A stretch of DNA of 64,000 nt, from assembly GCF_017377795.1 (NCBI RefSeq), contig NZ_JAFRDR010000008.1, positions 1-64,000 on the forward strand, written 5' to 3'. Numbering within the stretch: the first letter of the stretch is position 1; the number at the start of each line of letters is the position of its first letter. Below the pieces are notes generated by a model, which worked only from the letters and a program-made list of their open reading frames with translations, was not told where the DNA came from and ran no database searches. Both the position numbers and the translations under genes were made by a program. This stretch comes from Williamsia soli (GTDB lineage Bacteria > Actinomycetota > Actinomycetes > Mycobacteriales > Mycobacteriaceae). This document shows, piece after piece, positions 6,168 to 31,520 of the stretch.

Positions 6168-6169
6168 GT

Positions 6170-12658: not shown

Positions 12659-12900
12659 GCGACGACACGGTGGCGGAGGCCACGGATACCGCACCGGCGA
12701 AGCCATTTCTCACTGTCGTGAGAGGCAACCCGTCTGACGCCGAGGTCGCCGCGCTCGTAGGCGTTTTCGCGTCCGCCGGCGACTCGGGCGGACCGGTCGA
12801 CAGCGGCCCGCGAAACCTGTGGGGCACCCCATCCGATCGCCTGCGGGCCGCAACCGGCCTGGCTCCGAGCGTGTTCCCGAACCTCGCGTTCGGCTACTGA
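12655..12900 (+). CDS. accE5: Acyl-CoA carboxylase epsilon subunit
   Basis: Small protein of 81 aa starting at the ATG that overlaps the accD5 stop (ATGA). The helix-forming segment [20 protein letters not shown] is the actinobacterial epsilon-subunit motif, preceded by a flexible acidic N-terminus, and the C-terminal [11 protein letters not shown] region is also usual. In mycobacteria and Streptomyces epsilon bridges the alpha and beta subunits and raises activity. The gene order accD5-accE5-maf supports the call. Confidence 0.9.
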
Positions 12901-12928: not shown

Positions 12929-13555
12929 ATGACCCGCTTCATACTGGCATCGGCCTCACCGGCGCGGCGTCGGATCCTGCAGGCAGCCGGACTCGACCCG
13001 ATGGTTCAGGTTTCCGACGTGGACGAGGATGCCCTCATCGCCGAAATCGGTTCGAGCACATCACCCGCGGACATCGTTGCCGCTCTCGCCAGGGCGAAGG
13101 CCGAGAGCGTAGTGGCCGCGCTCGATCCCGGCCTCCGAGACGACGCGGTACTCGTCGGGTGCGATTCGATGCTCCATCGCGGCGGTGCACTCACCGGCAA
13201 GCCGCATACCGCTGCTGCTGCCCGAGCCCAGTGGCACGCGATGCGCGGCACGGAGGCCGAGTTGCTGACGGGCCATTGCCTGGTGCGACTGATCGCCGGC
13301 GAGGTTGCCGCCACCGCGAGCCGGACCGTCACGACCACAATACGTTTCAGCAGTCCGACGGATGCGCAGATCGACGCTTATGTCGCCACCGAGGAGCCGT
13401 TGACGGTGGCCGGGGCATTCACTCTCGATGGCCGTGGCGGCTGGTTCGTCGACGGGATCGACGGCGATCCGTCATCGGTGATCGGCATCAGCCTTCCGCT
13501 GGTACGTAGCTTGCTCGACGATGTCGGAGTGAGCATCACCGACCTCTGGGTGTGA
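12929..13555 (+). CDS. maf: Maf-type nucleoside triphosphate pyrophosphatase
   Basis: Maf family pyrophosphatase (208 aa) that hydrolyses non-canonical or modified nucleotides. The N-terminus LASASPARRRIL is the family substrate-binding motif; VGCDSML holds the catalytic Asp region (usually D-T/S-x), and GKPHTAAAARAQ and GRGGWFVDGIDGDPSSVIG are conserved. GAGGT precedes the ATG. It ends the accD5-accE5-maf run. In the usual order sseA would follow; here about 13 kb of other genes intervene. Confidence 0.92.
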   Translation: MTRFILASASPARRRILQAAGLDPMVQVSDVDEDALIAEIGSSTSPADIVAALARAKAESVVAALDPGLRDDAVLVGCDSMLHRGGALTGKPHTAAAARAQWHAMRGTEAELLTGHCLVRLIAGEVAATASRTVTTTIRFSSPTDAQIDAYVATEEPLTVAGAFTLDGRGGWFVDGIDGDPSSVIGISLPLVRSLLDDVGVSITDLWV

Positions 13556-13592: not shown

Positions 13593-14957
13593 TCACCACA
13601 TTCGGTGATCGAGGCCCCACGCAGTCAACTCCTCCCCGATCTGTTTGCGCATCAGATCGGCGTCTCCGAAGTGGTCGGGGTGGATCCCGAAGAACGTGAT
13701 CGTCACCTTGTCCCCGTACTCGACTGCCCACGCCGCCACCGCAGGTCCCAGCGTCCTGCGATGCTGCGGAGGGCGGCCCTGCATGATCGCTCTGATCCCG
13801 AACGACGTCGCCGTCTCTCCGCCGAGTTCGAGCGCAGTCCGAGGCACGACCCCCAGATTCGACACCGTGGTGTCCGGGCCCGGTATCGACTGCATCATCT
13901 TCCCGATCAATCGTTTCGGTAGCAGACGCACAACCGGTTGCAGGTTGTCGGCCACCGCGGCCGCCCCGTTGTTCGCATAGTCGATGAAGGCTTCCTTGCT
14001 CAGCGCTCTGATCTCGCCGAGGCCACGGTCGGGTGTGATCTCCCCGGGCACTCGAATCCACACGCCACCAGATGCATTCGCACGTTCGTCACCGTCGCCG
14101 CGCCTGCTGACGGCGATACACAAACGCATCGCCGGCGCCGGAACGGGATACCCCGAGCGTTGCACCAGGCCGCCGAGTAGCGCGGTGAACAGACTGTTCG
14201 ACGTGCCGCCGTGTTCGGCCGCCCGGGCAATCCACTGCTCCTTGTCGACATCCGCGGTGGCGAGCGTTGTCTCGGGGCCACCACGATCCGGGGTCATTGC
14301 CGCCTTCGGGGACTGTGGTTCCTTCGGGACGCTGTCCACCGATGTGTCTTTGCCGCGCTGCTTCCACAGCGCCGTGGCAAGGAGTGTGCACGACCGGGCA
14401 GCCGCTGCCACCTGTTGCCGGGCATCGGTGAGATCGTCCCGTAACCCAGGCCAGCCGCGCGTCTGATCCAGGGTGGGCAGCGTGTTGGTCGACGCACCTG
14501 CGTGAGCGGCGGCGAGTGCCGCATAGACGCCCTGTCCGTCGGAGACCATGTGCGAGACCAACAGTGACAGCGCGTACCCGCCCGATCCGGTCGGTGCCCC
14601 GTCCAGCTGCCACCCGTGACCGTCCGCCGGTCGCAGCGCCGAACCGCGAACACGTTCGTCCATCCACGCCCCGATCTCGTCGTCGGCGATGGGTGACGGC
14701 GCACACCTCAGATCAGGAACCTCGTCGTGACGGACCCACCGATCGCGGGCCAGTGGTACCCGGGTCCGGCGTACCCGGCGGTTCAGCGACCCGGCTGCCA
14801 GCTCATCACGCAGTCGGACCAGCGCCGCCTCACCGGGGTGTCGGTCGAAGACCCACAGGAACTGGATGGGTGCACCGAGGCCGAAAAGGTCCTCGGCCAA
14901 CAGATAGGATTCATCCGCACCGGTGACCCGATCTGCTTGTATTCCTTGCTCAGACAT
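13593..14957 (-). CDS. HxxxDG acyltransferase (wax-ester-synthase/condensation-like), AT1
   Basis: Protein of 454 aa with the acyltransferase motif SHMVSDG, placing His136 and Asp140 where the catalytic HxxxDG of WS/DGAT and condensation-type enzymes lies. Other cues: LNRRVRRTRVP near residue 60 and a C-terminal half with TSNSLFTALL and a final WGLDHRMW. It is clearly paralogous to the neighbouring AT2 (shared LNRR, GGTSNSLF, AWGL-HR-W). Likely transfers an acyl group from CoA or a carrier to a hydroxyl on a glycolipid, inferred from context. Last gene of a three-gene operon (GT1a-AT2-AT1), 23 bp after AT2; ends 37 bp from the end of maf, tail to tail. Confidence 0.75.
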   Translation of the reverse strand: MSEQGIQADRVTGADESYLLAEDLFGLGAPIQFLWVFDRHPGEAALVRLRDELAAGSLNRRVRRTRVPLARDRWVRHDEVPDLRCAPSPIADDEIGAWMDERVRGSALRPADGHGWQLDGAPTGSGGYALSLLVSHMVSDGQGVYAALAAAHAGASTNTLPTLDQTRGWPGLRDDLTDARQQVAAAARSCTLLATALWKQRGKDTSVDSVPKEPQSPKAAMTPDRGGPETTLATADVDKEQWIARAAEHGGTSNSLFTALLGGLVQRSGYPVPAPAMRLCIAVSRRGDGDERANASGGVWIRVPGEITPDRGLGEIRALSKEAFIDYANNGAAAVADNLQPVVRLLPKRLIGKMMQSIPGPDTTVSNLGVVPRTALELGGETATSFGIRAIMQGRPPQHRRTLGPAVAAWAVEYGDKVTITFFGIHPDHFGDADLMRKQIGEELTAWGLDHRMW

Positions 14958-14980
14958 GAGTTCGTCCTCCGATCAATGCA

Positions 14981-16297
14981 TCACCAGATGCGGTGCGGCA
15001 GTCCCCAGGCAGCGAGTTCGGCAGTGAGCAGGCGGTGCAGTTCCGGCCGGTCGCCGAACCGGGATTCGTCGAATGCCGCCACCGAGAACGTGAGCTGATC
15101 GCCCACCTCGAGTAGCCAGGACTGGACACCCTCGCCGAACCGGTAGGGCTGCGACGGGTCGACCCCCTGCGCAATTCCGCGGAACGCGACACCGGAGGCG
15201 GGTACCCCGCCCAGCTCCGAGAGTTCCGGGGTGAAAGCGCCGAGATTGGATGCGACCGCGTCGGGCATCCCGCTGCCCGAGCTGACCGCCTTGACGATCA
15301 GAGATGTCGGCAGCAACCACATCAGCGGTAGCAGATGGATCATGGCAGGCCTGCGGCCTGCTGCGAGCGCGGTGAAGGCGGCCTTGCACTTTCGCCGGAT
15401 CGGGCCCAGGTCGCCGCCTGCGGCCGGCTCGTCGATCAGGTAGACGGACACCCCTGCGGTCGCGTTGCCTCCCTCGTCATCCGCCGTTCGACTGCTGACG
15501 GGGACCCCCACCTTGATCGGCTCTCCGAGTGGTGCGTAGCCGCTGGTTCGCAACAACCCTGAGATGACGGCCACAAAAAGGCTGTTCGAGGTGCCTCCGT
15601 GCTCCTCGGCGACCTTGCGCCACACGTCGACGTCCACACTGACGATCGCCCACGGGCCGGCGGCAGCGGGCGCCCTGACGTTCATCGGCGGACGGGGTGC
15701 GCGCATCGGGGGTGGTGGTGTCGAGTCGCGGCGCATCGTGGAGATCGTCGCGCGCACGACGCCGTGCGCCGCGGCGACGATCTGGCGAATCGAGTCACCT
15801 GCATCCGCCGCGCCGGCATGCGCCTGAGGACGCACGGACAGGGCGTCTGCTCCCCTGCCTCCGAGCGCGTCTGCGGCGGCCGACACCGTCGCCTTACCGT
15901 CGGCGACCAGATGAAGCGTGGTCAGGGACAGTACGAAGCCGCCGTCGACGGTGGGCGCGCCCCGCAGCCGCCACGACGTTCCATTCTCGGGATCCAGAGG
16001 CGCGGAATACATCTCCCGGGCCGCCCATCTCTCGACCGCGTCGCTCTCGACCGTCGTCTCGTCGAGCAGAAGATCCGGTTCCATCTCGGAGTGGACCCAT
16101 CGCGGGCGCGAAAAGGGAAACGGCGACGTGATCAGGCGCCGATTCAAGGGGCTGGCCGCCAAGCGTGCGTTGACGGCCATGAGCGCGTCGTGGGAGGGCG
16201 GACGATCGAACCTCCACAAGACCTGCAGCACCACCGACCACCTGAAGGCACGGCGCACGAACCAGTAGGTGAAATCTTCGGGGGCCAGTCGCGTCAT
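14981..16297 (-). CDS. HxxxDG acyltransferase (wax-ester-synthase/condensation-like), AT2
   Basis: Acyltransferase of 438 aa, paralogue of AT1. Motif LHLVADG gives His129 and Asp133 of HxxxDG; also LNRRLITSPFP near 52-62, HGGTSNSLFVAVI and the terminal AWGLPHRIW. The open frame extends far upstream, but that part lies antisense-shifted inside the glycosyltransferase gene. The ATG at 16297 (MTRLAPEDF) lies two bases after that gene's TGA and aligns with the paralogue, so it is the start. Its position straight after a glycosyltransferase suggests acylation of the freshly added sugar; substrate and donor are unknown. Confidence 0.77.
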   Translation of the reverse strand: MTRLAPEDFTYWFVRRAFRWSVVLQVLWRFDRPPSHDALMAVNARLAASPLNRRLITSPFPFSRPRWVHSEMEPDLLLDETTVESDAVERWAAREMYSAPLDPENGTSWRLRGAPTVDGGFVLSLTTLHLVADGKATVSAAADALGGRGADALSVRPQAHAGAADAGDSIRQIVAAAHGVVRATISTMRRDSTPPPPMRAPRPPMNVRAPAAAGPWAIVSVDVDVWRKVAEEHGGTSNSLFVAVISGLLRTSGYAPLGEPIKVGVPVSSRTADDEGGNATAGVSVYLIDEPAAGGDLGPIRRKCKAAFTALAAGRRPAMIHLLPLMWLLPTSLIVKAVSSGSGMPDAVASNLGAFTPELSELGGVPASGVAFRGIAQGVDPSQPYRFGEGVQSWLLEVGDQLTFSVAAFDESRFGDRPELHRLLTAELAAWGLPHRIW

Positions 16298-16299
16298 GA

Positions 16300-17589
16300 T
16301 CAGGCCGACAATCGAATCGAGCGCCCCTGCCGGGCGGCGTTCTCGATCAGGTCGACCGTGCCTGCGGCGGCCTGCTCGGCGGGGATGAGGCATGACGCCA
16401 GCGTCGCTGCGCGATCGGTGTACGCCCTGCCGAGTACCAACTCGAGATTCTTCGTCAAAACGTCGACGTCGAGAGTTCTGAGCGGTATCGATGCCCCCAC
16501 GCCCAGCCGCTCGAGTTGCAGCCCCCAGAAGGGCTGGTCCGAACCGAGCCAGCACACCAGTGCCGGTTTGCCCGCCCGGACAGCTGCGGACGTGGTACCC
16601 GCACCGCCGTGATGAACCACCGCCCGGCACCGCGCGAACACGCGTCCGTGGTCGACCGCCCCGACCACGCGCACGTGTTCGCTCGAGGTCCGGCCGAAGT
16701 CGTTCCACCCTGCGCACACCAGGGCGCGCTGCCCAAGCGTTCGGCACGCCTCGTCGATCGCGGCCAACAGAGCGTCCGGATCGGGTACGGGCATACTGCC
16801 GAACCCGAAATAGATGGGAGGATCCCCCTTGTCGATCCAGGTTTCGGTGTCGGGATCCACAGGGTCGGAGCCGATCCGGCCTCGCAGATCCGCCGGGAGA
16901 TCGATGAAGCCGACGAGTGGGCGACCCGGACCCCACACCCGCGTGAGTTCGGGACAGAAGACAGGATCGTATGCCTGGACCTCGACCGCTCCGTAGTCCT
17001 GCATTCGCCGTGCCAGGGGCTGCTTCGCCGGCTCGAGCCCGAGCAGGCGCCGGAGCCGGTTCTCTCGTCCCTTGGTCAGCTGCCAGAACGCCGCCGTCAC
17101 GGCAGCCCAACTGACTGCGTTCACGCGAGCGGGAAGCGTCAGGGGCGCCCCGGGGAACGGCGAGACGAAAGGATTCTCCGTCACTGGTGCATGATGCAGA
17201 ACGAAGAACGGAATGTCGTCTCGTTGCGCGAATGCGAAAACAATTTGGGCCGTGGTGAATCCGGTCACCACCGCGTCGGCACCCACTGCGAGCCCGAACA
17301 TCTCGTCGACCATCTGACTCCATCCGTGATCACGGATCTCTGCGAGCGCACGGAGACGCTTGAGAGGCCCACCGGTGCGCACGCCCTCTCGGATGACGGC
17401 CGAGTTGATGTGGGCCCGGGTGTCGTAGCCGAACGGGCGAGCATCGAGTCCGGCCCCTGCTGCGAACTCGACCAGGTTGGGCGGCGCTCCGAAGACCACC
17501 TCGTGTCCACGTCGCAGCAGTTCCGCACCCAGCACGACCGCGGGTTGGATATCACCACGCGTTCCGTTGAACGCGAGGACAAAACGCAT
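16300..17589 (-). CDS. Family-1 (MGT/GPL-type) glycosyltransferase, GT1a
   Basis: GT-B fold glycosyltransferase (429 aa) of the UDP-glycosyltransferase family that includes the mycobacterial glycopeptidolipid and vancomycin-type enzymes. The N-terminal domain begins with VLAFNGTRGDIQP (acceptor side); the C-terminal nucleotide-sugar domain has VVHHGGAGTTSAAVRAG near residue 327 and GSDQPFWG. Two ATGs are adjacent; the second (17589) sits 5 nt from GGAGG and matches the N-terminus of GT1b, so it is preferred. First gene of the minus-strand operon GT1a-AT2-AT1, divergent from its paralogue GT1b. Confidence 0.88.
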   Translation of the reverse strand: MRFVLAFNGTRGDIQPAVVLGAELLRRGHEVVFGAPPNLVEFAAGAGLDARPFGYDTRAHINSAVIREGVRTGGPLKRLRALAEIRDHGWSQMVDEMFGLAVGADAVVTGFTTAQIVFAFAQRDDIPFFVLHHAPVTENPFVSPFPGAPLTLPARVNAVSWAAVTAAFWQLTKGRENRLRRLLGLEPAKQPLARRMQDYGAVEVQAYDPVFCPELTRVWGPGRPLVGFIDLPADLRGRIGSDPVDPDTETWIDKGDPPIYFGFGSMPVPDPDALLAAIDEACRTLGQRALVCAGWNDFGRTSSEHVRVVGAVDHGRVFARCRAVVHHGGAGTTSAAVRAGKPALVCWLGSDQPFWGLQLERLGVGASIPLRTLDVDVLTKNLELVLGRAYTDRAATLASCLIPAEQAAAGTVDLIENAARQGRSIRLSA

Positions 17590-17720
17590 CATCGCCTCCC
17601 CGCACCGTCTCGGCCCCGACCGCCGTCATTCACATCATCTTAGGTGAGGCGTTAGGGTCGTGCAGGGTCAGCGAATCCACCACCGGGAAGATCGAGCCTG
17701 CTTGGCCGAGACGAGGGGCG

Positions 17721-18989
17721 ATGAAATTTGTACTGGCGTTCAACGGAAGTCGCGGAGACGTGCAGCCCGCGATCGCCCTCGGGAGCGAATTGGCCATGCG
17801 CGGTCACGAAGTCGTGCTCGCAGTCCCACCGAACCTCACCGACTTCGCCAGGGCGTCCGGTCTGCGGGTGCACCGCTACGGGCTCGACACTCGAGAACTT
17901 CTCCGCTCCGAGGTCGTCTCGCGGGACCTCAAGTCCAACAACCCGGTCACCAAACTGCGTGCGGTGTCGGAGATCACGCTCAGGGGCGGGCGGACCATGC
18001 AGCAAGAACTGCTCGACCTCACCGCCGACGCGGACGCCATCATCGGCGGCAGCGCAGGCCAGGAACGAGCACTCAATGTCGCGCTGGTACGTGGTATCCC
18101 TTACATCCCCATCCATCTGTGTCCCATTCGTCGCAACGGTGAGGTGTCACTGCTCACTCAGTTCGGTATCGATCCTCCGCGGCCCGTGGCACGCGCGAGC
18201 TGGACGATACTCGAACAGATCCTATGGCGGGCAACCCGATCGGCAGAAAACGCACTCGGATCCGAGTTGGGACTCCCCGCGGCCGACGCACCCGCGGCCA
18301 CTCGGATCGAAAGGCAAGGAGTGCCGGAGATCCAGGCGTACGACCCCGCGTTGTTCTCCGACCTGACGTCGGAGTGGGGTGCGCGCAGACCTTTGGTGGG
18401 GTTCTTCAACCTCACGCCACAGACCCGAAAGCAGATGAGCGACGGGCACTCCGACGATGAGCTGCAGAGGTGGCTCGACGACGGACCACCACCGCTCTAC
18501 GTCGGATTCGGGAGCATGGCCGTGGCCGATCCCGACCGCTTGGCGAGGGTGATCGTGGCCGCGACCGAGTCCCTGGGGCTGCGGGTTCTACTCGCCACCG
18601 GATGGGGTCGTTTGACGTTCGATGCGCCCGATGATCGGATCTACGCCGTTCCCGCCGTCGACCACGACGCGATCCTGCCCCGGTGCGTCGCGGCCGTCCA
18701 TCACGGTGGCGCGGGCTCCACCGCCGCCTCCCTGCGGGCAGGACTGCCGGCACTCGTCTACTGGCTGGGCGCCGACCAGCCCCTGTGGGGCAGACAGATT
18801 CGTCGCAGCGGCGCCGGATTGAGTTCTCCACTCGCCAACATCGATGTGAACGGATTCCGCAACGCCCTCGCGGAGATACTGACGCCTGATCACACCCGCG
18901 CGGCGCGGGACCTGTCCGCGCAGTTGGTCACGCCTGCCGCAGCAGTCGCCGCAGCAGCAGCGCACGTCGAGCATGCCGTGCGATCGTGA
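17721..18989 (+). CDS. Family-1 (MGT/GPL-type) glycosyltransferase, GT1b
   Basis: Second GT-B glycosyltransferase, 422 aa, closely related to GT1a: N-terminus VLAFNGSRGDVQP, RGHEVVLAVPPNL, and the donor-binding VHHGGAGSTAASLRAG near residue 326 followed by GADQPLWG. GAGGGG precedes the ATG. It probably adds a second sugar to the same aglycone as GT1a, or the same sugar at another position, as paired Gtf enzymes do in glycopeptidolipid loci; this is inference. It stands alone on the plus strand, 131 bp from GT1a, and converges on the GT2 gene. Confidence 0.87.
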   Translation: MKFVLAFNGSRGDVQPAIALGSELAMRGHEVVLAVPPNLTDFARASGLRVHRYGLDTRELLRSEVVSRDLKSNNPVTKLRAVSEITLRGGRTMQQELLDLTADADAIIGGSAGQERALNVALVRGIPYIPIHLCPIRRNGEVSLLTQFGIDPPRPVARASWTILEQILWRATRSAENALGSELGLPAADAPAATRIERQGVPEIQAYDPALFSDLTSEWGARRPLVGFFNLTPQTRKQMSDGHSDDELQRWLDDGPPPLYVGFGSMAVADPDRLARVIVAATESLGLRVLLATGWGRLTFDAPDDRIYAVPAVDHDAILPRCVAAVHHGGAGSTAASLRAGLPALVYWLGADQPLWGRQIRRSGAGLSSPLANIDVNGFRNALAEILTPDHTRAARDLSAQLVTPAAAVAAAAAHVEHAVRS

Positions 18990-19035
18990 TGTACGCGCTA
19001 TCGCTGCTCAGTGATCCGGGGCAACGGATGTCTCG

Positions 19036-19935
19036 TCACGGCATGATCCGATCGTGGGTCGGCCGCAGTACGTTCTTGGCCGCGAACCCGCCGGTTTCTT
19101 TGTCGTAGGCCCGGATCACCACCAGTCGAACGGCATGGAGTGTCGTGACCGTCGGCAGGTACACCAGGGCCGCCAGTGCTGCCCATCCGAACCGCCTGTG
19201 GACCAACAGGGTTCGCGGAAGGCAGATCATATAGGTCACAAACCCCGGCACGCTCGTCTCCATCCGCCGGGGTGAGACACCCACCGTGATGTCCGGCAGA
19301 AAGGCATTTCGTCCGCCAGATTCCTTTACGCAGAGTCCGGTGTCGACGTCCTCGAACAGGTCACGACGCAGGCTGACCCGATCGCGAATCTGCAGCCACG
19401 TCTCACGACGCAGCACCATGTTGGACCCATACAGCACCGGAACGCTCTTGACATCGATGGGCGTGGACGTGCCCGCACGTGATGTCTTCACTCGTCGCGC
19501 GCGCAATGGGCTGAACCGTTCCTTCACATCGCTCAAGGCCGATCCGTAGGGCAGTCCATACGCCTCGCCACGGCCGCACAGCGCCGCCCAGCGGTGTTCT
19601 GTGTCGCTCTGCAGGAACTCGACGATCGTCCGAGCCCAGTGCGGCGGCACGAGTGTGTCGGAATCGATCCTTGCCACCACCGGCCCGCCGCTGGCGTCGA
19701 GACCGGCGTTACGGGCGAAGACGAGTCCCTGCCGGGTCTCGGAGATCATCCTGATCTCCGGATGTCGCTCGGTGAATGTGGCGACGATGTCTGCTGTCTT
19801 GTCGGTCGAGTTGTTGTCGACGACCACGATTTCGAGGATGTGATCGAGCTGGCGGCTCAAGCGTTCAAGACATTCGCCGATCACCTCCTCTTCGTTGAAG
19901 GTGGGGACCACCACCGACAAACACTTCGAATCCAT
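19036..19935 (-). CDS. Family-2 glycosyltransferase
   Basis: GT-A fold family-2 glycosyltransferase (299 aa). Visible: the N-terminal SVVVPTFNEEEVIGECL, VVDNNSTDKT, the metal-binding DxD in ARIDSDTLVP, and a later FEDVDTGLCV that fits the ED motif. Near the C-terminus (about 230-270) there are one or two hydrophobic stretches (FGWAALAALVYLPTVTTLHA), suggesting membrane attachment and a polyprenyl-linked donor or acceptor. ATG at 19935 has AAGGAGA upstream; an upstream in-frame start at 19962 is less likely. Last gene of the operon drrA-like, drrB-like, GT2. Confidence 0.85.
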   Translation of the reverse strand: MDSKCLSVVVPTFNEEEVIGECLERLSRQLDHILEIVVVDNNSTDKTADIVATFTERHPEIRMISETRQGLVFARNAGLDASGGPVVARIDSDTLVPPHWARTIVEFLQSDTEHRWAALCGRGEAYGLPYGSALSDVKERFSPLRARRVKTSRAGTSTPIDVKSVPVLYGSNMVLRRETWLQIRDRVSLRRDLFEDVDTGLCVKESGGRNAFLPDITVGVSPRRMETSVPGFVTYMICLPRTLLVHRRFGWAALAALVYLPTVTTLHAVRLVVIRAYDKETGGFAAKNVLRPTHDRIMP

Positions 19936-19989
19936 GACTCTCCTTCGACGTCGAGTTCGCACAGATCGATCCGCTCCCTGACAGATCGG

Positions 19990-20826
19990 TCAGGTCTTGC
20001 GCATGTACACCCGCAGGGTCAGGGGTGCAAAGATGGCGAGCACCACCAGAGCTCCGATCAGCGACCAGGCGATCTGCGGACCGAAATGTCCGTCGACGGC
20101 CAGTTCTCGTACCGCGGAGACGAGATGCGAGACGGGATTGACCGACGCGAAAGACTGCATCCACCCGGGCAACGTCGTGACGGGCACCAACGCGTTCGAC
20201 ACGAAGGTCAGCGGCATCAGGATCAGCATCGAGACCCCCTGCACCGTGGATGCCTTGTTCATCAGGACTCCCATCAGCGCAAATATCCAGCTCAACGCGA
20301 ATGCCACGACGATGACGAGCAGACAGCCGGCAAGAAGCCCGGCGATACTTCCGGGGCGGTATCCCATCGCGAATCCGACAAGAACCGTCACCCCGGTCGC
20401 CACCACATAGCGCACCACATCCGCCAGCAGCGAACCGGCCAGTGGTGAGATCCGGGCGATGGGAAGAGATTTGAAACGATCGAAGACGCCCTTGTCGAGA
20501 TCCTCGCGCAGTTGCACACCGGTGGTCACCGACGCCGCGACGGCGACCTGGACCAGCACACCCGGGATCAGCAGCGGAAGATACGCGTTGACGTTGCCGG
20601 CGATGGCTCCACCGAAGATGCTCGAGAACAACACCGTGAACACGATCGGCAGGATGACCACGTCGAACAGCTGTTGCGGATTGTGCTTGATCTTGAGCAA
20701 CCCACGCTCGGCCATGGTCAGTGCCTGCGAGACCGATCTGCCCATCGAGACGTGTTTCGGGATGTGCCGGTCGGCAAGCAACGCAGCGACTTCGGGATCG
20801 AACGGGATTCCGGTACCCGCGGTCAT
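19990..20826 (-). CDS. ABC-2 type transporter permease, DrrB-like
   Basis: Permease of 278 aa with six membrane helices (roughly 55-75, 86-106, 132-155, 162-188, 194-214, 249-270) after a long cytoplasmic N-terminus, and the ABC-2 family segment VSNALVPVTTLPGWMQ with NPVSHLVSAVREL. This layout is that of DrrB/OleC5-like exporters; in mycobacteria the closest known role is phthiocerol dimycocerosate export by DrrABC. The start overlaps the ATPase stop by ATGA. Only one permease gene is present, so the exporter is probably an ATPase plus homodimeric permease. The likely cargo is the glycolipid of this cluster (inference). Confidence 0.87.
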   Translation of the reverse strand: MTAGTGIPFDPEVAALLADRHIPKHVSMGRSVSQALTMAERGLLKIKHNPQQLFDVVILPIVFTVLFSSIFGGAIAGNVNAYLPLLIPGVLVQVAVAASVTTGVQLREDLDKGVFDRFKSLPIARISPLAGSLLADVVRYVVATGVTVLVGFAMGYRPGSIAGLLAGCLLVIVVAFALSWIFALMGVLMNKASTVQGVSMLILMPLTFVSNALVPVTTLPGWMQSFASVNPVSHLVSAVRELAVDGHFGPQIAWSLIGALVVLAIFAPLTLRVYMRKT

Positions 20827-21797
20827 GCGGCGTCCTCCCGGATCTCGGGTACCTCCGTGGGCTGCCCGGTGATGGTGAAGAACACCTCGTCGAGGCTGGG
20901 CTTCTGAACATTGATCTCCCGAAGCTCGATGCCCGCCGCTCGCAGCGCGAACAACAGCTCCGGTAGGAGCGAGAGATCGTCCAATGGTGCGGCGACCCCT
21001 CCGTTGCCGGACACGGTGGCCTCCGTGCGTGTGTAGCCGGCGACAATGCCCGCCGCCTCCCCGGCCGCCGTCGGATCACTCAGGGCCAGGCCGAGCGTCG
21101 AGGACCCGACGGCAGCCTTCAGGTCGTCCGCGGTTCCGTCCGCGACGAGCCGGCCGTTGTCGATCACCGCGATACGATCGGCCAACTGATCGGCTTCCTC
21201 GAGATACTGCGTGGTCAGCAGCACGGTGGAACCTGCGGCGACCAGCGCTCGGATCGTGGTCCACATCTGCGCGCGGGTCCGCGGGTCGAGTCCGGTGGTC
21301 GGTTCGTCGAGAAACAGCAACGGTGGGCGCGAGATCAAGCTGGCCGCGAGGTCGAGGCGCCGACGCATACCACCGGAGAAGTGCCGCAGAGACCTGTCGG
21401 CCGCGGCTTCCAGGCCGAACTCCTCGAGGAGTTGAGCCGCTTTGGATTTCGCCGCAGTCCGCGACAAGCCGAGGAGCTTGCCGAAGATCATCAGGTTCTC
21501 GGCCGCGGTCAGATCTTCGTCTACGGACGCATACTGACCCGTCACCCCGATCAGGGATCGCACGGCCGTGGCATCGCGGACGACGTCGTAACCGAAGACC
21601 GCCGCATGTCCGGCGTCGGGCCGAAGCAGTGTGGCGAGCATGCGCACGGTGGTGGTCTTGCCGGCACCGTTGGGCCCGAGCACGGCATAGACGATGCCCG
21701 CAGGTACTGCGAGGTCTATGCCATCGACTGCACGAAAGGTGCCGTAGCTCTTCACGAGTCCGGTCGCCTCGATCGCCAGCGGTGATCGGTTGCCCAT
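20823..21797 (-). CDS. ABC transporter ATPase, DrrA-like
   Basis: ATP-binding subunit of 324 aa. Walker A GPNGAGKTTT, signature FSGGMRRRLDLA, Walker B LLFLDEPTTGLDPR and the H loop in LTTQYLEEADQL are all intact. The C-terminal DrrA-type extension includes VQKPSLDEVFFTITG. Start at ATG 21797 (MGNRSPLAIEATGLVKSYG), which has AGGAGGAG upstream; the longer frame is rejected. First gene of the exporter-GT2 operon; its promoter must lie in the AT-richer 21798-22361 gap shared with the divergent acyltransferase operon. Confidence 0.92.
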   Translation of the reverse strand: MGNRSPLAIEATGLVKSYGTFRAVDGIDLAVPAGIVYAVLGPNGAGKTTTVRMLATLLRPDAGHAAVFGYDVVRDATAVRSLIGVTGQYASVDEDLTAAENLMIFGKLLGLSRTAAKSKAAQLLEEFGLEAAADRSLRHFSGGMRRRLDLAASLISRPPLLFLDEPTTGLDPRTRAQMWTTIRALVAAGSTVLLTTQYLEEADQLADRIAVIDNGRLVADGTADDLKAAVGSSTLGLALSDPTAAGEAAGIVAGYTRTEATVSGNGGVAAPLDDLSLLPELLFALRAAGIELREINVQKPSLDEVFFTITGQPTEVPEIREDAA

Positions 21798-22361
21798 CGC
21801 GTTTCTCCTCCTAATGGACACCGCTTCTGGTCGCCCCGTTTGGATCACATTTCGCTACCTGGCCATTTCCCTATCCGGCCACGACGCCAACATATAGGGC
21901 AGAAGAAATATCGAACGACGAATGTATTCCGTCGAGCATTTACCCCACAGCCGAAGGTTAGTCCCTGCCAACGAATTCCCGCAAGAGTGGCACACGGTCC
22001 GGCGACTTTTCGTTTCCCATCAAAGCGACTGTAAGCCAACTTATTTCACATCGATGTCACATGACGGACACCAACTCGCAAAAAGTACGCGACTACGCCA
22101 TGCAGACGCTGCCCCGCCACTCGTACCGCGCCTGACAAAATGCCAGTTAGGAGATTGTTTTCAGCGATTGGACAACCGTTTCACGCACTTCCGAAGAACT
22201 GTGTTGTCCGACTGTTTGCAACGCTAAACGTGATGAACAACACTTTATCCTCGCGACGAAATCGCGTGAGTTCAGCCATACGATTGGGAAGCGCAGTCAG
22301 AACCTCTCCGACGATCAGCGATCTCAATCACACGTCATCACCGGAAACCGGATGCGGGACT
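21798..22361. promoter_or_regulatory. Long divergent intergenic region of lower GC
   Basis: A 564-bp gap between the divergent exporter operon and the AtA-AtB-AtC acyltransferase operon. By eye it is near 50% G+C against about two-thirds in flanking genes, with short A/T runs not seen in the coding DNA. An open frame crosses its right half from 22140, but the base composition and the lack of similarity to the paralogous acyltransferase N-termini argue that it is not translated. It probably holds both promoters and regulator sites. No clear palindrome was found by eye. Confidence 0.6.
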
Positions 22362-23840
22362 ATGGAATTCACTGAACTTGCAGATTATCCGCTGCCCTCG
22401 GGCAGTCTCACCGAGTGGATACCCACGACCGGGGCCGACGGCGCATGCTGGTCCGTGGACTCCCGCCCTCTCACCTACGACCACGAAGACCATTACACGC
22501 GCGGGCTGTCGGGTGAACCGTCAAACGGCCAATCTGCTTGGCTTGGGTCAGCTTTCGAGATTCACCTGCCGTTTGATGCCGACGCCGTCAGGCGAACGCT
22601 CCGGGCGTGGATGCTCCGACACGAGGCATTCCGAACCACGGTGACCAAAACTGTTGACGCGCAGGGTCGTACCCACCTCGCCCGGCTCACCAGCTCCGGC
22701 GAGGTGCTGGAGGTGGCTCCCCATTCCGTCGGTCGACTCGGGAACGGGGCTCACGTACGTGCACACCTGGTCGACCTGTTCGACACCCAGATCTCACCGC
22801 TGACGTGGCCGCACTGCCTGGTGGCAACCATCTCCGACGCCGACGCACCGATTGCCGGCAACGGCTTCCTCGTGGTCTTCGGAGCCGACCACTCGGTGAT
22901 GGACGCGTATTCGATGCTGCTGGCCATCAGCGAGATCCAGCGCTTGTACGCGTACGAACTCCACGGAATCGATCCCGCTCTGTCCGAGATCGGCAGTCAT
23001 GTCGACTTCAGCGCGAACGATCGCATCATCGGCGGCGGGCTCACCGCTGAGCATCACGCGGTCGAGAAGTGGCAGCGATTTCTCGACGCGGGAGACGGGC
23101 AGTTCCCCCGTTTCGGACTGCCGGTCAAACCCGAGGGCATCAACCCACATGCGGGCCGGCAGCAGAACGGGATGTCCACGTGGCTGCTGTCGACGGAGGA
23201 GGTCAACCGAGTCAACGCCAACTGCCGCGAACTCGGGCACAACATGCAGTCGGCCGTACTCGCGTCGCTCGCGCTGGCGCAACGCGAACTCGTGGGCGAG
23301 TCCACGCTGCGATTCGTGATGCCGATGCACACCCGTCACGAGTCACAGTACGTCGAATCGGTCGGCTGGTACGTCGGCATCATCCCGGTCGAGGTGGACA
23401 TCACCGCCGCCGAGACCTTTGGTGACTGCATGGGGGCGAGCGCGGAAGCGGTGGCCGCCACCAAGAGCTTCGCCCGCTATCCCTACCCTCGCATCGCCCA
23501 ATTGCTCGGAAGGCACGCAGTCCCACAGTTCGTGGTCTCCTACCTCGACGTGAGATTCGTGCCCGGGGCGGCGGAATGGGAACGGTGGCGCGCACGCACC
23601 CTGCGCAGCGGCACATTCTCGGACGACGAGGTGTACCTGTGGATCGCCCGGACCCCGGTCGGCATGACGGTGTCGGCCCGCTTTCCTGCAACCGAGGTCG
23701 CCGACACAGGAGTACGACGTTTCATCGATGCCCTCGGTGAACTACTGCTCGGGTTCGCCCGCGACGGTGACCATCCCACCGCCGGTCGTTCACCGACCTC
23801 GCTCACGATCCACTACTCGCAAGACAAGTTCCCGGCCTAG
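22362..23840 (+). CDS. Condensation-domain/PapA-like acyltransferase, AtA
   Basis: Stand-alone condensation-superfamily acyltransferase, 492 aa. Motif ADHSVMDAYS gives His177 and Asp181 of the catalytic HxxxD; the LRHEAFRTT segment (residues 85-93) is the usual early condensation motif. The C-terminal half has VGWYVGIIPVEV and VVSYLDVRFVPG, resembling the DFGWG-side region of PapA proteins. Start set at ATG 22362 (MEFTELADYPLPSG) because three paralogues begin with the same pattern (a short strand, then PGG-L-EW). First of three tandem genes, 44 bp before AtB. Presumably esterifies an acyl chain onto a sugar or alcohol. Confidence 0.8.
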   Translation: MEFTELADYPLPSGSLTEWIPTTGADGACWSVDSRPLTYDHEDHYTRGLSGEPSNGQSAWLGSAFEIHLPFDADAVRRTLRAWMLRHEAFRTTVTKTVDAQGRTHLARLTSSGEVLEVAPHSVGRLGNGAHVRAHLVDLFDTQISPLTWPHCLVATISDADAPIAGNGFLVVFGADHSVMDAYSMLLAISEIQRLYAYELHGIDPALSEIGSHVDFSANDRIIGGGLTAEHHAVEKWQRFLDAGDGQFPRFGLPVKPEGINPHAGRQQNGMSTWLLSTEEVNRVNANCRELGHNMQSAVLASLALAQRELVGESTLRFVMPMHTRHESQYVESVGWYVGIIPVEVDITAAETFGDCMGASAEAVAATKSFARYPYPRIAQLLGRHAVPQFVVSYLDVRFVPGAAEWERWRARTLRSGTFSDDEVYLWIARTPVGMTVSARFPATEVADTGVRRFIDALGELLLGFARDGDHPTAGRSPTSLTIHYSQDKFPA

Positions 23841-23884
23841 ACCGGTTCAGCGGGACGACTTCCCGGTACAGAGAGGCGCTCAAC

Positions 23885-25348
23885 GTGATCATCACCGCGA
23901 TGGATTGGTGGACCCCGGCCGGTGGCACCCTGCTCGAGTGGCATCCGACGGCGACCGCGCGGGTACGCGCGGCAGCGGCAACCCAGGACGCGGGCCCCCT
24001 GTCTTTCCTGCAGGAGAATCACATCAAGGCATGCCATGTCGCTCGGCAGGGCGGCGGTGACCACAAGGCCTATCTCGGCTCGGGCACCGACATCGACGGT
24101 GATCTCGATCGCAGTGCCCTGACCCGGGCATTGCGCAGTTTCGTACTACGCCATGAGGGTCTGCGAACCTGGTTCGACACCGACGGGGTCGCGATCACCC
24201 GATACCTCCTCGATCCCGAGGCTGTCGACTTCGAGGTCGGGGTGGTCGGAGAGTTCACCGAGTCCGAGCAATTCCGGGAGTACCTCCACCACCGCTTCGG
24301 GAATGAAGCGGTGGCGACGAGCTGGCCGGGATTCGCATTCGGGGCGATCAGCCGTGCCGGCAGCTTCACCCTGTACTACGGGTGCGACCACGCGCTGAGC
24401 GACGGGGCCTCCCAGGCTCTGGCGCTCGCCGAGATCGCGGAGTTGTACGACGCCGAGATCACCGGAAACGCGCCGGCCCACTTCGCGAGCGCACCCACCG
24501 GCAGTTTCGTCGAGTACGCGCGGCTGGAGAATCAACTCGCCGCCGGTTTTACCGCCGACTCCACCGAGATCGTCGAGTGGCGCGACATCTTCGATTCACA
24601 TGGCGGATCCATGCCGGGATTCCCCCTGGACCTGGGCCTGGCGCCAGGTGAGACGGCCCCGGTCCGCCCGGTCGAACTCAACCTGCTCGACGCCGACGGC
24701 ATCGCCCGGTTCGAGCGCATCTGCACGGAGGCCGGCGGCACCTTTTTGTCGGGGATCTACGCCGCGGTTGCACTCACGGAGTACGAACTGGCCGCCCGCG
24801 CCGACTATTTCGGGATCTCGGTACTCGCGACGCGGCTCGTCGCCGACTTCGGGATGTCCCAGGGCTGGTTCTGCAACTTCGCCCCGGTCGCGTTCGGCGT
24901 CGAAGGCGCACGATCGTTCACCGATCTGGTGCCGGCCGCGTTGGCCGGCTACACCAGGGCGAAACGTCTCGCCGCCGTTCCCGCACAGAGCGTCATCGCC
25001 GCGCTGCTGACTTCGGGCGCCTCGCCCGCCGATGTCGCGGCAAGTCCCAACCTCCTGTCATACATCGATTTTCGCCGTTTCCCCGGATACGGAGGGCAAG
25101 CCTATGACCGCGGCGTGCTCTTCACCGGAGAAGGCCGGACCGCAAATGCCTCGATGTGGTTCAACCGCGACGACGATCGTCTCTACCTCGGCAGCCAGAC
25201 CCCGGACACCACTCTGGCCCAGCTTCAGGTCAAGCGGTATCACGAACACCTGTGGTCGGTTTTCGATCGGGTCGTCACCGGCGGGGACTACGCTGTACCG
25301 AGTCCGGGACCCACGGGATGTGCGACGGAAGAGATGTCTCTGCCATGA
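23885..25348 (+). CDS. Condensation-domain/PapA-like acyltransferase, AtB
   Basis: Second tandem paralogue, 487 aa, GTG start with GAGAGGCG upstream. Catalytic motif CDHALSDGAS with His169 and Asp173; early motif LRHEGLRTWFDTDG; later region with QGWFCNFAPVAF and LLSYIDFRRFPGYGG. Spacing and length agree with AtA, but sequence divergence is wide, so the acyl donor or acceptor probably differs. Placed 23 bp before AtC. Soluble, with no signal peptide, so it should act on the cytosolic face before export. Confidence 0.8.
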   Translation: MIITAMDWWTPAGGTLLEWHPTATARVRAAAATQDAGPLSFLQENHIKACHVARQGGGDHKAYLGSGTDIDGDLDRSALTRALRSFVLRHEGLRTWFDTDGVAITRYLLDPEAVDFEVGVVGEFTESEQFREYLHHRFGNEAVATSWPGFAFGAISRAGSFTLYYGCDHALSDGASQALALAEIAELYDAEITGNAPAHFASAPTGSFVEYARLENQLAAGFTADSTEIVEWRDIFDSHGGSMPGFPLDLGLAPGETAPVRPVELNLLDADGIARFERICTEAGGTFLSGIYAAVALTEYELAARADYFGISVLATRLVADFGMSQGWFCNFAPVAFGVEGARSFTDLVPAALAGYTRAKRLAAVPAQSVIAALLTSGASPADVAASPNLLSYIDFRRFPGYGGQAYDRGVLFTGEGRTANASMWFNRDDDRLYLGSQTPDTTLAQLQVKRYHEHLWSVFDRVVTGGDYAVPSPGPTGCATEEMSLP

Positions 25349-25371
25349 ACATCGGATCGAGGTAACCGCGC

Positions 25372-26715
25372 TTGCACGTCACCACCATTGACCGCTACCT
25401 ACCCGATCCCGGCAACCTGATGCAGTGGACGGTCGACTCCGGCGCCGTTCAACCTGTCGCCTCGCCGGTACCGCCCTCGTTCAACCAAGGTTTCCACCTG
25501 AGTGGAACCGAAGGCGAAAGCGTCTGGCTTGCAGCAGCATTCGATATCGAAGGGCGGGTCGACGACAAAGCACTCGAACGCGCCTATCGACTGCTGATCG
25601 CACGCCACGGCACGTTGCACAGTGCATTCGTGCGACGCGACGGCGAGATCGAACGGGAACTCTACGACCCCGCCGAGCTGATCCTGAAGCAGGAGCCCAT
25701 GGTCCGAACGGACTCACCTGTTGGATTGCGGGATCTGCTGTGGAGCACGTTGAACACGGCGTGCCACCCGTTCGGTTTTCCCGCCTACCTGTTGGCCGCA
25801 ATCGATCGGGCCGAGCGCTCGACCGTCTTCTGTGGCTTCGACCACGCCCATGTAGACGCGTACTCGATGTCGATCATCATCGACGACCTCTATCAGCTCT
25901 ATCGCGGTTGCCTCACCGAACCCGGCGGATTCTTCGCCGACACGATGCCGATGGCGGGCAACTTCGTCGATTACTGCGCCGCTGAAGCAGAGGCCGCGAT
26001 CATCGGCCCCCGTGACCCGCGGATGCGTGCCTGGCTGAAGTTCTTCGACGAGCACGACAACACCCCTCCGGGTTTCCCGCTCGACCTCGGACTGCCTCCC
26101 GGTCAGTCGGCACCTCAGGCGGTGGACCTGCGCGACCTGCTCGATGCAGGCACCACCGCCGCTTTCGAGGTGTTCTGCCGGCGCAATGGTGCATCCGTGT
26201 TCGCGGGCATGCTCGCCGCGATGGCACGGTGCGTCCGGGTTCTTGGGGGCGGCCCACAGATGTCACTGCTGTTCCCACTGCACACCCGCCGCTCCGAACA
26301 GTGGCGCGGTGCGGTCGGCTGGTTCACGACCAACGCACCGATCAACGTGGCCGCGACCGAGGACTTCAACGAATCCGTTCAGCGTGCGGGTCCGGCGCTG
26401 CGCACGGCGGTCTCCCTCGGCGAGGTGCCCGTCCCACACGTCCTCGCGGCGATGGGAGGCCTCAACCATCAGCGAAGTGACATCTTCATGGTCTCGTTCG
26501 TCGACTACCGCGGACTCCCCGGTGGGTCCGCGCACGAGGACATCGGGGCGCACCACGTGTCCAACGTGACCACCGCCGACGACGCGCAATTCTGGATTTC
26601 GCGGACCGAGCGTGGGCTCGCCCTGCGCAGCCGGTATCCGGGCACCGATGCCGCCGAGCCGGTCATCTCATCGTTCCTCGGTGAACTCTCCCGGTTCCTG
26701 CGGCAACCCTGGTAG
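25372..26715 (+). CDS. Condensation-domain/PapA-like acyltransferase, AtC
   Basis: Third tandem paralogue, 447 aa. Motif FDHAHVDAYS gives His158 and Asp162; early motif IARHGTLHSAFVRRDG; later VGWFTTNAPINV and MVSFVDYRGLPGG. Start is a TTG at 25372 with GAGGT 8 nt upstream; the protein then begins with a strand and PGNLMQW as in the paralogues, which supports the rare start codon over the ATG 16 codons later. It is shorter than AtA, AtB and AtD by 37-45 residues. Last gene before sseA, 76 bp away. Confidence 0.78.
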   Translation: MHVTTIDRYLPDPGNLMQWTVDSGAVQPVASPVPPSFNQGFHLSGTEGESVWLAAAFDIEGRVDDKALERAYRLLIARHGTLHSAFVRRDGEIERELYDPAELILKQEPMVRTDSPVGLRDLLWSTLNTACHPFGFPAYLLAAIDRAERSTVFCGFDHAHVDAYSMSIIIDDLYQLYRGCLTEPGGFFADTMPMAGNFVDYCAAEAEAAIIGPRDPRMRAWLKFFDEHDNTPPGFPLDLGLPPGQSAPQAVDLRDLLDAGTTAAFEVFCRRNGASVFAGMLAAMARCVRVLGGGPQMSLLFPLHTRRSEQWRGAVGWFTTNAPINVAATEDFNESVQRAGPALRTAVSLGEVPVPHVLAAMGGLNHQRSDIFMVSFVDYRGLPGGSAHEDIGAHHVSNVTTADDAQFWISRTERGLALRSRYPGTDAAEPVISSFLGELSRFLRQPW

Positions 26716-26791
26716 CTCCACGAGCTCCTCCCGCGCACTACGCTCGTGAGGTATTCGCCCCCGCAACGCCCAGCCGATTTGGAGCAAACCC

Positions 26792-27688
26792 GTGACCGTG
26801 GAGATCGACAACAACCCCGGCTTTGCCGAGTACGTTCACCCCGAGCGCCTGGTCAGTACCGAGTGGCTCAGCGCCCACCTCGGCACCGACGGTCTCAAGA
26901 TCGTCGAATCCGACGAAGATGTGCTCCTGTTCGACATCGGGCACATCCCGACCGCGCAGAAGGTCGATTGGCATCTGCACCTCAACGACCCGGTGACCCG
27001 CGACTACATCTCCGGCGAACAGTTCGCGGAGCTGATGCGCAGCAAAGGAATTCGCCGCGATGACACCGTGGTCATCTATGGCGACAAGAGCAACTGGTGG
27101 GCCGCCTACGCTCTGTGGGTGTTCACGCTGTTCGGCCACGAAGACGTCCGCTTGCTCGATGGTGGCCGTGACGCCTGGTTCTCCGAGGACCGCGACATCA
27201 CCTTCGATGTACCCGACTACCCCGAGTCCGACTATCCGGTCGTGCAACGCGATGACTCGCAGATCAGAGCATTCGCCGACGAGGTGAGGGCCGGCATCGG
27301 CACCGAACCACTCATCGACGTCCGGTCACCGCAGGAGTACTCCGGTGAGCGCACCCATATGCCGGAGTACCCACAGGAAGGTGCGCTGCGCGGCGGCCAC
27401 ATCCCCACCGCGGTGTCGATCCCATGGGCAAAGGCCGCGGCCCCGGACGGGCGGTTCAAACCGGCCGCGGAGCTGCGCGAGCTGTACTCGGACTTCGCCC
27501 CCGACCAGTCGACCATCGTCTACTGCCGCATCGGGGAGCGCTCGTCGCACACCTGGTTCGTGCTCACGCATCTGCTCGGTTTCGACAAGGTCCGCAACTA
27601 CGACGGCTCCTGGACCGAATGGGGCAACGCGGTGCGGGCGCCGATCGTCACCGGCGACGAACCGGGCACCGCGAGTGGCACGCGGTGA
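26792..27688 (+). CDS. sseA: Thiosulfate sulfurtransferase (tandem rhodanese)
   Basis: Two-domain rhodanese, 298 aa, GTG start with TTGGAG upstream. The N-terminal domain has [17 protein letters not shown], where the Cys is absent as usual; the C-terminal domain has [23 protein letters not shown] and the catalytic loop [12 protein letters not shown] with the active Cys. It moves sulfane sulfur from a donor to cyanide or, more likely in the cell, to a partner protein. The GTGA overlap with sufE suggests the two work together in sulfur trafficking. The order sseA-sufE-accA3 is that of mycobacteria. Confidence 0.93.
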
Positions 27689-28101
27689 CCGCGGCGCTCG
27701 ACGAGATCATCGAGGACTTCGCCGCCCTCTCTGACTCGGAGAAGATCCAGCTGCTACTCGAGTTCTCCGACGAACTCCCCGAATTGCCGGACGACCTCGC
27801 CGAGGCGGCGATGGAACCGGTGCCCGAGTGCCAGTCACCGTTGTTCCTCTCGGTGGACGACAGCGACCCCGACTCGATCCAGCTCTTCTTCAGCGCTCCA
27901 CCACAGGCGCCGACCACCCGCGGATTCGCATCCATTCTCCATCAGGGGCTCAACGGGGCCAGCGCAGCGGAGATACTGGCGGTACCCGGAGACTTCTACA
28001 CCAGCCTCGGCCTCGACTCCGCGATCAGCCCGCTGCGACTTCGCGGGATGGCGGCCATGCTGGCCCGCATCAAAGCGCACCTGGGCCCGACGGGTCGATG
28101 A
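27685..28101 (+). CDS. sufE: SufE-family sulfur acceptor protein
   Basis: SufE-like protein of 138 aa. The core [13 protein letters not shown], then [12 protein letters not shown] with the conserved Cys that accepts persulfide, [17 protein letters not shown], and [23 protein letters not shown] are the family hallmarks. The GTG start overlaps the sseA stop (GTGA), and its own stop overlaps the next acyltransferase start (ATGA). It probably receives sulfur from SseA or a cysteine desulfurase for Fe-S assembly. Confidence 0.92.
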
Positions 28102-29552
28102 AGTTCATCCAGATGATGGACCAGCCCGTCGAACCGGGCGGGCTGGTCGAGTGGTCGCCGTACACCGACGGCGGATTGGCGCACTGGAAGGCCGATTCCC
28201 GGCCCACGTCCCACAATCACGAGCAGCACCTGCGCTCGGCATTCGAGTACCGGCTACGCCACCGCCGTGAAGGCGGACGCGAATCCTGGCTCGGGCTGGC
28301 CATCGATTTCGACGAGCCCCTGTCCATCCCTGCGATCCGCTCCACCTTCTCGATGTGGATCGACCGGCACGAGGTGCTGCGCAGTCATGTGGTCATCTGG
28401 GCCGACCGCCTGGCCCGGATGACGACGCCCCCCGGCTCGGTGAAACTGAAAATGGGCAAGGTCGGCTGGTACGGCGAACCGGGACCACTCCTGGACCAAC
28501 TCAGCGGCACCTTCGACCGGGCGACCGCGCCATTGCAGTGGCCCGCATACCTTTTCGCGACGGTCGCCCGCGAACGTTCATTCACGCTGCTGTTCGCGGC
28601 CGACCATTCGCTGGTCGACGGTTACTCGCTGATCATGGCCCAGCACGAGTTGGTGTCGCTCTACGCAGCGAGCCGCCGCAAGGTCCAACCCGACCTTCCC
28701 GCCGTGGGTTCGTACGTCGATTTCAGCGCGTACCAGCGCCGTGAGGCGGACGCGGCAGGCTCCGATCACGAGGCGATCGCAGTGTGGTCGGACTTCCTGC
28801 GCGACACCGGAGGGAAGCTCCCGGGCTTCGAACTCGGCGGTGACGCCGAACCTGCCCAGGTCGAGCCCGGCCACGAGTCCGGGGCGGACGAGCACGCCGA
28901 ACTCACCCCGCAAGGGTCGATCACCGCCGAGCTGCTCGACGACGAACAGACCAACAGATTCACCGCTGTGTGTTCGGCGGCAGGCGGCTCGCTTTTCGCC
29001 GGCGTCATGGCGGCGCTCGGCGCGGTGTATGCCGACCTCGGTGGTGGCCCGGTGATGCGGTGCGTCATCCCCCGCCACACTCGGGGCGACCAGCAGTGGT
29101 TCGGGGCCCTCGGCTGGTTCGTGGCGACCGTCCCGTTCCGGCTCGACAGCTCCCAGCCGGCCGATTTCGGCCAGGCGATCGGACGTGCCACCGAGGAACT
29201 GCGGCGGGTCCGTAAAGCATCGAGTCTGCCGTTCCTTCGCGTCGGGCAGATCCTCGGGCAGGAGTTCGACTTCCCGGAGCCGAAATTCGTGGTCTCGTTC
29301 ATAGATCTGCGGTTCGCCCCCGGTAACGCCGAGGCCGACGCCGGCCGGGCACGGGTTCTGCGCAGCCACAACTATTCGGCAGACGAGGTGTACATCTGGA
29401 TCAACCGCACGGCGTCGGGGCTGCGCATCTCGGCCCGCTTCCCCTCGCACGGTCGAACCCACAATCAGGTCGGCCGTTTCCTCGGTGCATTCGGCGATTT
29501 CCTCACCGCGATCGGCGACCAGAGCACCTACGGAAAAGTTACCCGCGAGTAG
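28098..29552 (+). CDS. Condensation-domain/PapA-like acyltransferase, AtD
   Basis: Fourth PapA-like protein, 484 aa. Motif [10 protein letters not shown] gives His170 and Asp174; early motif [13 protein letters not shown]; later [12 protein letters not shown] and [13 protein letters not shown]. It resembles AtA most (shared SRPTSH / SRPLTYDHE-type N-terminal segment, [13 protein letters not shown] against SDDEVYLWI). The ATG overlaps the sufE stop, so a lipid-assembly gene is translationally joined to the sseA-sufE pair; the conserved order would have accA3 directly after sufE. The longer upstream frame is the sufE region in another frame. Confidence 0.82.

Positions 29553-29729: not shown

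Positions 29730-31520
<1,791 letters not shown>

Follow-up and report, generated by a model that had tools for sequence, protein, structure and literature searches.

Which product is made by the genes that separate maf from sseA in Williamsia soli, and does it belong to a class of lipids that is already described? The window, i.e. the 64,000 nucleotides that open contig NZ_JAFRDR010000008.1, contains ten genes between maf and sseA (atA, atB, gt1A, gt1B, gt2, drrB, drrA, pap1, pap2 and pap3), here called the cassette, and pap4 sits outside this block, between sufE and accA3. We consider it fairly probable that the cassette builds and exports a trehalose-cored, multiply acylated oligosaccharide lipid of the biosurfactant or cell-envelope glycolipid class.

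Reading frames together with Pfam and NCBIfam scans recover all components listed earlier from the letters alone (the sequence-only reading), namely two GT1 and one GT2 glycosyltransferases (GTs), a DrrAB-type exporter, five acyltransferases between maf and sseA and a sixth between sufE and accA3. These families would fit a glycosylated, multiply acylated and exported lipid, as was then proposed. The earlier statement that polyketide synthases (PKS), nonribosomal peptide synthetases (NRPS) and fatty acyl-AMP ligases (FAAL) are missing also holds, as every gene from maf to accA3 is accounted for and no PKS, FAAL, multidomain NRPS or MmpL is found among them. The condensation-family matches in this interval are stand-alone acyltransferases of 445–492 residues, and the translations of all six window acyltransferases contain HxxxD followed by G or A.

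Among the Pap proteins, pap4 alone was compared with solved structures. Its nearest relative is PapA2 from M. tuberculosis (6aef), a trehalose-2-sulfate acyltransferase, with an E-value of 1.6e-19, while the next match is at 5.5e-9. In the tree pap1 and pap4 form one clade (support 99), and together these results establish kinship to known trehalose acyltransferases.

Locus forms in Rhodococcoides and known glycolipids

The 37 Rhodococcoides genomes fall into three groups: 24 have a single GT1 of the cassette type (E≤1e-90) and lack a gt2 orthologue (E≤1e-130), seven have two GT1s and gt2, and six have neither. Paralogues of gt2, at 1e-61 to 1e-76, occur in 16 of the 24 one-GT genomes. All 31 genomes with a cassette GT1 also carry pap1, which is found in none of the other six. 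Twenty genomes were mapped (14 one-GT, two three-GT, four with neither), and all 14 one-GT loci read maf-at-gt1-at-pap1-pap2-pap3-sseA-sufE-pap-accA3. This R. fascians-type locus has six HxxxD genes, and its single GT1 groups with gt1A in the GT1 tree. The named three-GT genomes are R. corynebacterioides (two strains, L121 and L123), R. kroppenstedtii, R. trifolii, Rhodococcus sp. Leaf247 and UNC23MFCrub1.1.

The two locus forms can be set beside two known chemotypes, as given in the available parts of the papers cited here. Rhodococcus sp./R. fascians NBRC 12155 makes a trisaccharide succinic tetraester, and 'Nocardia corynebacteroides' SM1 a pentasaccharide succinic octaester (PMC4365757). 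In both, the number of GTs equals the number of sugars minus two (one GT for three sugars, three GTs for five), with the identity of the strains partly inferred. In the trisaccharide lipid the third sugar bears one C6 chain, and succinate and two acyloxyacyl groups are also present (PMC4365757), by our count six ester bonds, against six HxxxD genes at the fascians-type locus; this match is suggestive only.

Rhodococcus sp. I2R, nearest by 16S to R. yunnanensis, R. cerastii and R. fascians, produces succinic esters of di- and trisaccharides that bear 3-hydroxyacyl chains, and its contig 9 carries four papA genes (PMC8396431). The stop-to-stop distances of these genes (1448/1407/2995) approximate the one-GT layout (1450/1398/2991 in G069, 1448/1404/2964 in G063) and are unlike the three-GT layout, where the third distance is 3917 and 3923. 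The I2R authors proposed the four papA genes, trehalose genes and SucT for the pathway (PMC8396431). What is new here is the locus itself, its GT, the two WS/DGAT-like genes (wax ester synthase/diacylglycerol acyltransferase) and the contrast between one-GT and three-GT forms; the maf–sseA locus, its GT and the WS/DGAT-like genes are not described in the available parts of that account. TlsA from Rhodococcus sp. SD-74, a PapA-like putative acyl-CoA transferase, is needed for a succinoyl trehalose lipid (cited in PMC8396431), and its likeness to the window PapA genes is one of description only: PapA-like, and a trehalose lipid.

The closest known systems are the SM1 octaester and the succinoyl oligosaccharide and trehalose lipids that Rhodococcus makes (isolate Q, BS-15, R. 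fascians, I2R), which would fit by GT count, six-ester count and I2R papA spacing; these lipids are known from their chemistry, the window cassette from genes alone. The sequence-only reading knew no described product for this gene combination, but a plausible class exists in the succinylated oligosaccharide lipids with a trehalose core from Rhodococcus and 'Nocardia corynebacteroides' (PMC4365757). No characterised locus identical to the cassette was found in the open-access literature.

We suggest the following pathway. The gt1A enzyme would add a third sugar, from a nucleotide sugar, to trehalose or acyl-trehalose, and the fourth and fifth sugars would come from gt1B and gt2. Acyl groups would be loaded from acyl-CoA by the six HxxxD enzymes: medium-chain 3-hydroxyacyl groups, secondary chains on their hydroxyls, short chains and perhaps succinyl. 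DrrAB would export the product. Since the window cassette has three GTs, its lipid would be of the pentasaccharide type.

Several observations weigh against this proposal. Two chemotypes allow no statistics; SM1 has no genome in the comparison, its name need not correspond to the type strain, and the identity of R. fascians among the one-GT genomes is inferred. None of the 16 genomes tested matches I2R exactly, and the I2R papA genes have only about 30% similarity to TlsA, for which alone there is published evidence (PMC8396431). The eight esters of the pentasaccharide lipid exceed six acyltransferases unless some act twice. Other cassettes have two to four GTs and no known chemistry, and in the mapped Rhodococcoides loci DrrAB is absent save in R. 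trifolii. Millisia (L081, L088) has pap1–3 elsewhere and no pap4, and many genomes carry pap4 without the cassette; pap4 may therefore belong to another pathway. Finally, Tsukamurella makes tri- and tetrasaccharide trehalose lipids (PMC4365757), but the four genomes searched have only a pap4-type gene between sufE and accA3 and two remote PapA homologues (GT1 was not searched), and no pap genes accompany their GT2 homologue. Tsukamurella contradicts a simple GT-count rule.

Cassette genes and their surroundings

Table 1. Features of the window, in order of position.
Feature	Position	Strand	Basis
acyl-CoA dehydrogenase	161-1375	-	reading frames, Pfam/NCBIfam scans
purE	2369-3001	-	reading frames, Pfam/NCBIfam scans
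purK	2877-4286	-	reading frames, Pfam/NCBIfam scans
gtrA	4280-4840	+	reading frames, Pfam/NCBIfam scans
histidine kinase	4851-6314	-	reading frames, Pfam/NCBIfam scans
xanthine/uracil permease	6979-8652	-	reading frames, Pfam/NCBIfam scans
small protein	9467-10081	+	without Pfam match
birA	10091-10966	-	reading frames, Pfam/NCBIfam scans
accD5	10937-12658	+	sequence and gene order
accE5	12655-12900	+	sequence and gene order
maf	12929-13555	+	sequence and gene order
atA, HxxxD acyltransferase, WS/DGAT/condensation-like fold	13593-14957	-	AlphaFold2, Foldseek
atB, second WS/DGAT-like HxxxD acyltransferase	14981-16297	-	TIGR02946, motif
gt1A, GT1 glycosyltransferase	16300-17592	-	PF06722, PF03033 over cut-off; GT1 tree
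gt1B, GT1 glycosyltransferase	17721-18989	+	PF06722, PF03033, PF00201
gt2, GT2 glycosyltransferase, three-GT cassette marker	19036-19935	-	PF00535 E 6.8e-28
drrB, ABC-2 permease	19990-20826	-	PF01061; TIGR00025 (DrrB family) below cut-off
drrA, ABC exporter ATPase	20823-21797	-	TIGR01188 (drrA) 354.9 bits, cut-off 312.45
divergent intergenic region, 564 bp, 52.7% GC	21798-22361	.	
pap1, PapA-type acyltransferase	22362-23840	+	PF00668 E 1.5e-18; own clade in tree
pap2, PapA-type acyltransferase	23900-25348	+	PF00668 E 7e-14; clade support 96
pap3, PapA-type acyltransferase	25378-26715	+	PF00668 E 8.8e-15; clade support 100
sseA, rhodanese-type sulfurtransferase, core neighbour	26792-27688	+	PF00581
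sufE, core neighbour	27685-28101	+	PF02657
pap4, PapA-type acyltransferase	28098-29552	+	PF00668 E 3.6e-18
accA3	about 29757-31520		sequence and gene order

The two genes next to maf have a condensation-like fold with HxxxDG, seen for atA from its model and for atB from a weak family match plus the motif. The atA protein has no match in the Pfam scan; its AlphaFold2 model (mean pLDDT, the predicted local distance difference test, 90.3) is matched by Foldseek to 8s6l (AzeD, titled dehydratase; E 1.4e-18) and then to the wax ester synthase/DGAT 6chj (E 1.5e-16, template-modelling (TM) score 0.55–0.62), with NRPS condensation domains ranking after both. As the TM scores are about 0.5–0.66 overall, these matches would indicate a common fold class rather than close kin. 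Orthologues of atA are found in 39 entries of the named-loci scan described below. The TIGR02946 (acyl_WS_DGAT) match of atB, scanned as 14981-16318, has an E-value of 9.9e-11, far below the curated cut-off. A frame of 780 residues (14981-17323) overlaps gt1A, and the acyltransferase proper is the shorter frame in Table 1.

Judging from the tree, pap1–4 are separate, old paralogues. Of 60 rows labelled pap2, 59 cluster together and one falls with pap3, and the orthology of the two clades of sufE–accA3 pap genes (Williamsia/Gordonia/Tsukamurella versus Rhodococcoides/Rhodococcus) has a support of only 9. In the motif table HxxxD[GA] is lacking from a single pap2 (L077) and a single atB fragment (L115). 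For pap1, the start in Table 1 is preferred over 22140 because homology to its orthologues begins there. The divergent intergenic region upstream contains conserved blocks that are identical in three close relatives; it is a probable promoter region and likely a regulatory region common to the exporter and pap operons.

The GC content of the cassette genes (0.616–0.683) surrounds that of the window (0.648), and by this measure they do not look foreign. The sequence-only reading gave the order from fadE25 to accA3 as conserved in mycobacteria; in the window, a histidine kinase and a permease intervene between gtrA and birA. Downstream, at 32621-34672, a member of the same permease family is fused to an OHCU decarboxylase domain. 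Elsewhere in the genome (contig C18, approximately 707–711.5 kb) there is another PapA-like gene with a weak condensation-like piece.

Distribution and history of the cassette

The same genes in the same order recur in other genera, so the cassette is more than a chance assembly. In the Williamsia-like genus, seven of nine genomes, counting that of the window, carry the complete cassette in this position, and two congeners (G003, G005; L064, L066) keep pap3 and pap4 alone at the locus, without GTs. In an evenly drawn set of 301 family genomes, 37 have a gt2 orthologue (E≤1e-90), representing nine of 31 genera. Searching with the gt2 profile gave 43 named loci, and all except four from Tsukamurella have adjoining pap genes. 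These 39 loci come from Williamsia, Gordonia, Nocardia, Rhodococcus/Rhodococcoides, Millisia, Antrihabitans and one record labelled Kitasatospora; by inspection, 20 adjoin the sseA–accA3 block and 19 lie elsewhere. The Kitasatospora record (K. arboriphila NRRL B-24581, L094) is nearly identical to Williamsia muralis at the locus, an apparent mislabel or contamination. Regulators of the BTAD type (SARP-like) adjoin off-locus cassettes in Antrihabitans and Gordonia oryzae (L095, L112).

Empty and partial slots confirm that these are not core genes of all relatives. Two genomes (G019, L084; G035, L088) have a slot without any insert and without pap4, and in G014 the maf–sseA slot is empty, pap4 is in place and the cassette is on another contig; pap4 is broader in occurrence than the cassette. 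In G016 (L072) the slot holds an ISL3-type transposase and short open reading frames (ORFs), with pap4 in place, and is either decayed or reoccupied.

Seven cassette proteins were joined to build a tree from 35 of the 43 named loci and the window, omitting the four Tsukamurella loci (no pap) and four divergent Gordonia loci (L112, L113, L114, L116). Its topology mostly follows genus. However, Millisia and Williamsia sterculiae nest within Gordonia, which suggests transfer. The on-locus versus off-locus state requires only two changes over the 36 rows of this unrooted tree, and the maf–sseA slot thus appears to be an old home of the cassette. A recent insertion as the simple story is rejected because of the recurrence in congeners and the nearly genus-wise tree, and an insertion special to this genome is not supported. 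Repeated insertion into the same slot is possible, because in the Rhodococcoides three-GT loci the cassette sits between accD5 and maf, not between maf and sseA, and because the slot of G028 (L078-L079), from another genus, holds ORFs of 6042 and 2030 residues. A condensation domain is found in a piece of the second, and this slot seems, from its sequence, to be occupied by an NRPS.

The sequence-only reading had also tied the neighbouring carboxylase subunits to lipid supply. This coupling is not supported, as the order of accD5, accE5 and accA3 is kept with an empty slot and complete cassettes exist away from the carboxylase genes in Gordonia, Nocardia, Millisia and Antrihabitans. The link is positional only. 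In sum, that reading is partly supported: the type of lipid stands, while the special insertion, the carboxylase link and the lack of a described product do not.

Rival pathways and a wider view

PapA-type acyltransferases, GT1s and DrrAB recur in several mycobacterial systems, and the glycopeptidolipid locus of M. smegmatis and M. avium has GT1s beside acyltransferases, as does the window cassette. Still, it is very improbable that the locus is of the phthiocerol dimycocerosate/phenolic glycolipid (PDIM/PGL), sulfolipid, polyacyltrehalose or glycopeptidolipid type, as their defining PKS, FAAL, MmpL or NRPS genes are absent. The PDIM/PGL type has Pps/Mas PKS, DrrABC and PapA5, where the window has a DrrAB-type exporter only. 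The glycopeptidolipid type has Mps NRPS, MmpL4 and GT1s, whereas the window lacks multidomain NRPS, MmpL and a methyltransferase and has four PapA genes. The sulfolipid-1, polyacyltrehalose and trehalose polyphleate loci are closer in that their PapA acyltransferases act on a trehalose core and pap4 is nearest to PapA2; however, they carry PKS, FAAL-type FadD and MmpL, in place of which the window has GTs and DrrAB.

The GTs could instead decorate another lipid acceptor, such as a hydroxy-carotenoid, menaquinol, a sterol-like or phenolic lipid or a peptidolipid made elsewhere, with the acyltransferases acylating that glycoside. GT1s of this type do use aglycones, the nearest solved structure to gt1B is GtfB (1iir, 7.9e-26), followed by GtfA and sterol 3-beta-glucosyltransferases, and NRPS condensation domains abound in the genome (50 matches, four in the cassette region). 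We nevertheless regard such an acceptor as unlikely: the cassettes contain no tailoring gene for it, the GTs are accompanied by four PapA genes, with PapA2 nearest to pap4, and the lineages with one or three GTs have trehalose oligosaccharides as their known products (PMC4365757). Less likely again is a division in which the PapA genes serve an acyl-trehalose pathway (di- to tetraester) and the GTs a separate envelope glycan. It would account for pap4 standing alone in all four Tsukamurella genomes, G017 and five of 37 Rhodococcoides genomes, for the congeners that retain pap3 and pap4 without GTs, and for Gordonia amarae, which has the cassette (L105, no pap3 found) and is listed as a trehalose-lipid producer in the available part of PMC9009618. 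But the GTs and pap1–3 are gained and lost together, as the 31 of 31 versus none of six Rhodococcoides genomes illustrate.

Extending the preferred trehalose-cored oligosaccharide lipid to the whole family, it can tentatively be speculated that there is one modular locus, older than the split of Williamsia, Gordonia and Rhodococcoides, that makes acylated trehalose oligosaccharides, the GT set fixing chain length and the acyltransferase set the ester pattern. Here gt1A would give the trisaccharide, gt1B and gt2 five sugars, and the extra GT1s of Gordonia six.

A second, divergent cassette also exists, in which pap1-pap2-pap3 and an Ag85-type esterase (PF00756, four ORFs scanned) lie beside drrAB or a further GT1/acyltransferase. 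It occurs at L061:1234-9948 (the Williamsia sp. 1138-type genome G001), L073, L097, L098, L107, L109, L125 and L126, mostly in tandem with the main one, and its product is probably another lipid of this class.

The biosynthesis of trehalose-based oligosaccharide lipids has been called poorly understood by their discoverers (PMC8396431, in the part available). These lipids are potent biosurfactants, and antiviral activity has been reported. The locus offers a defined set of genes, an order in which the GTs would act and, for dozens of strains with sequenced genomes, a predicted size of the product. If the modular locus is real, the product would be readable from the genome, and the tandem cassette with the Ag85-type esterase would stand for a second lipid of the class.

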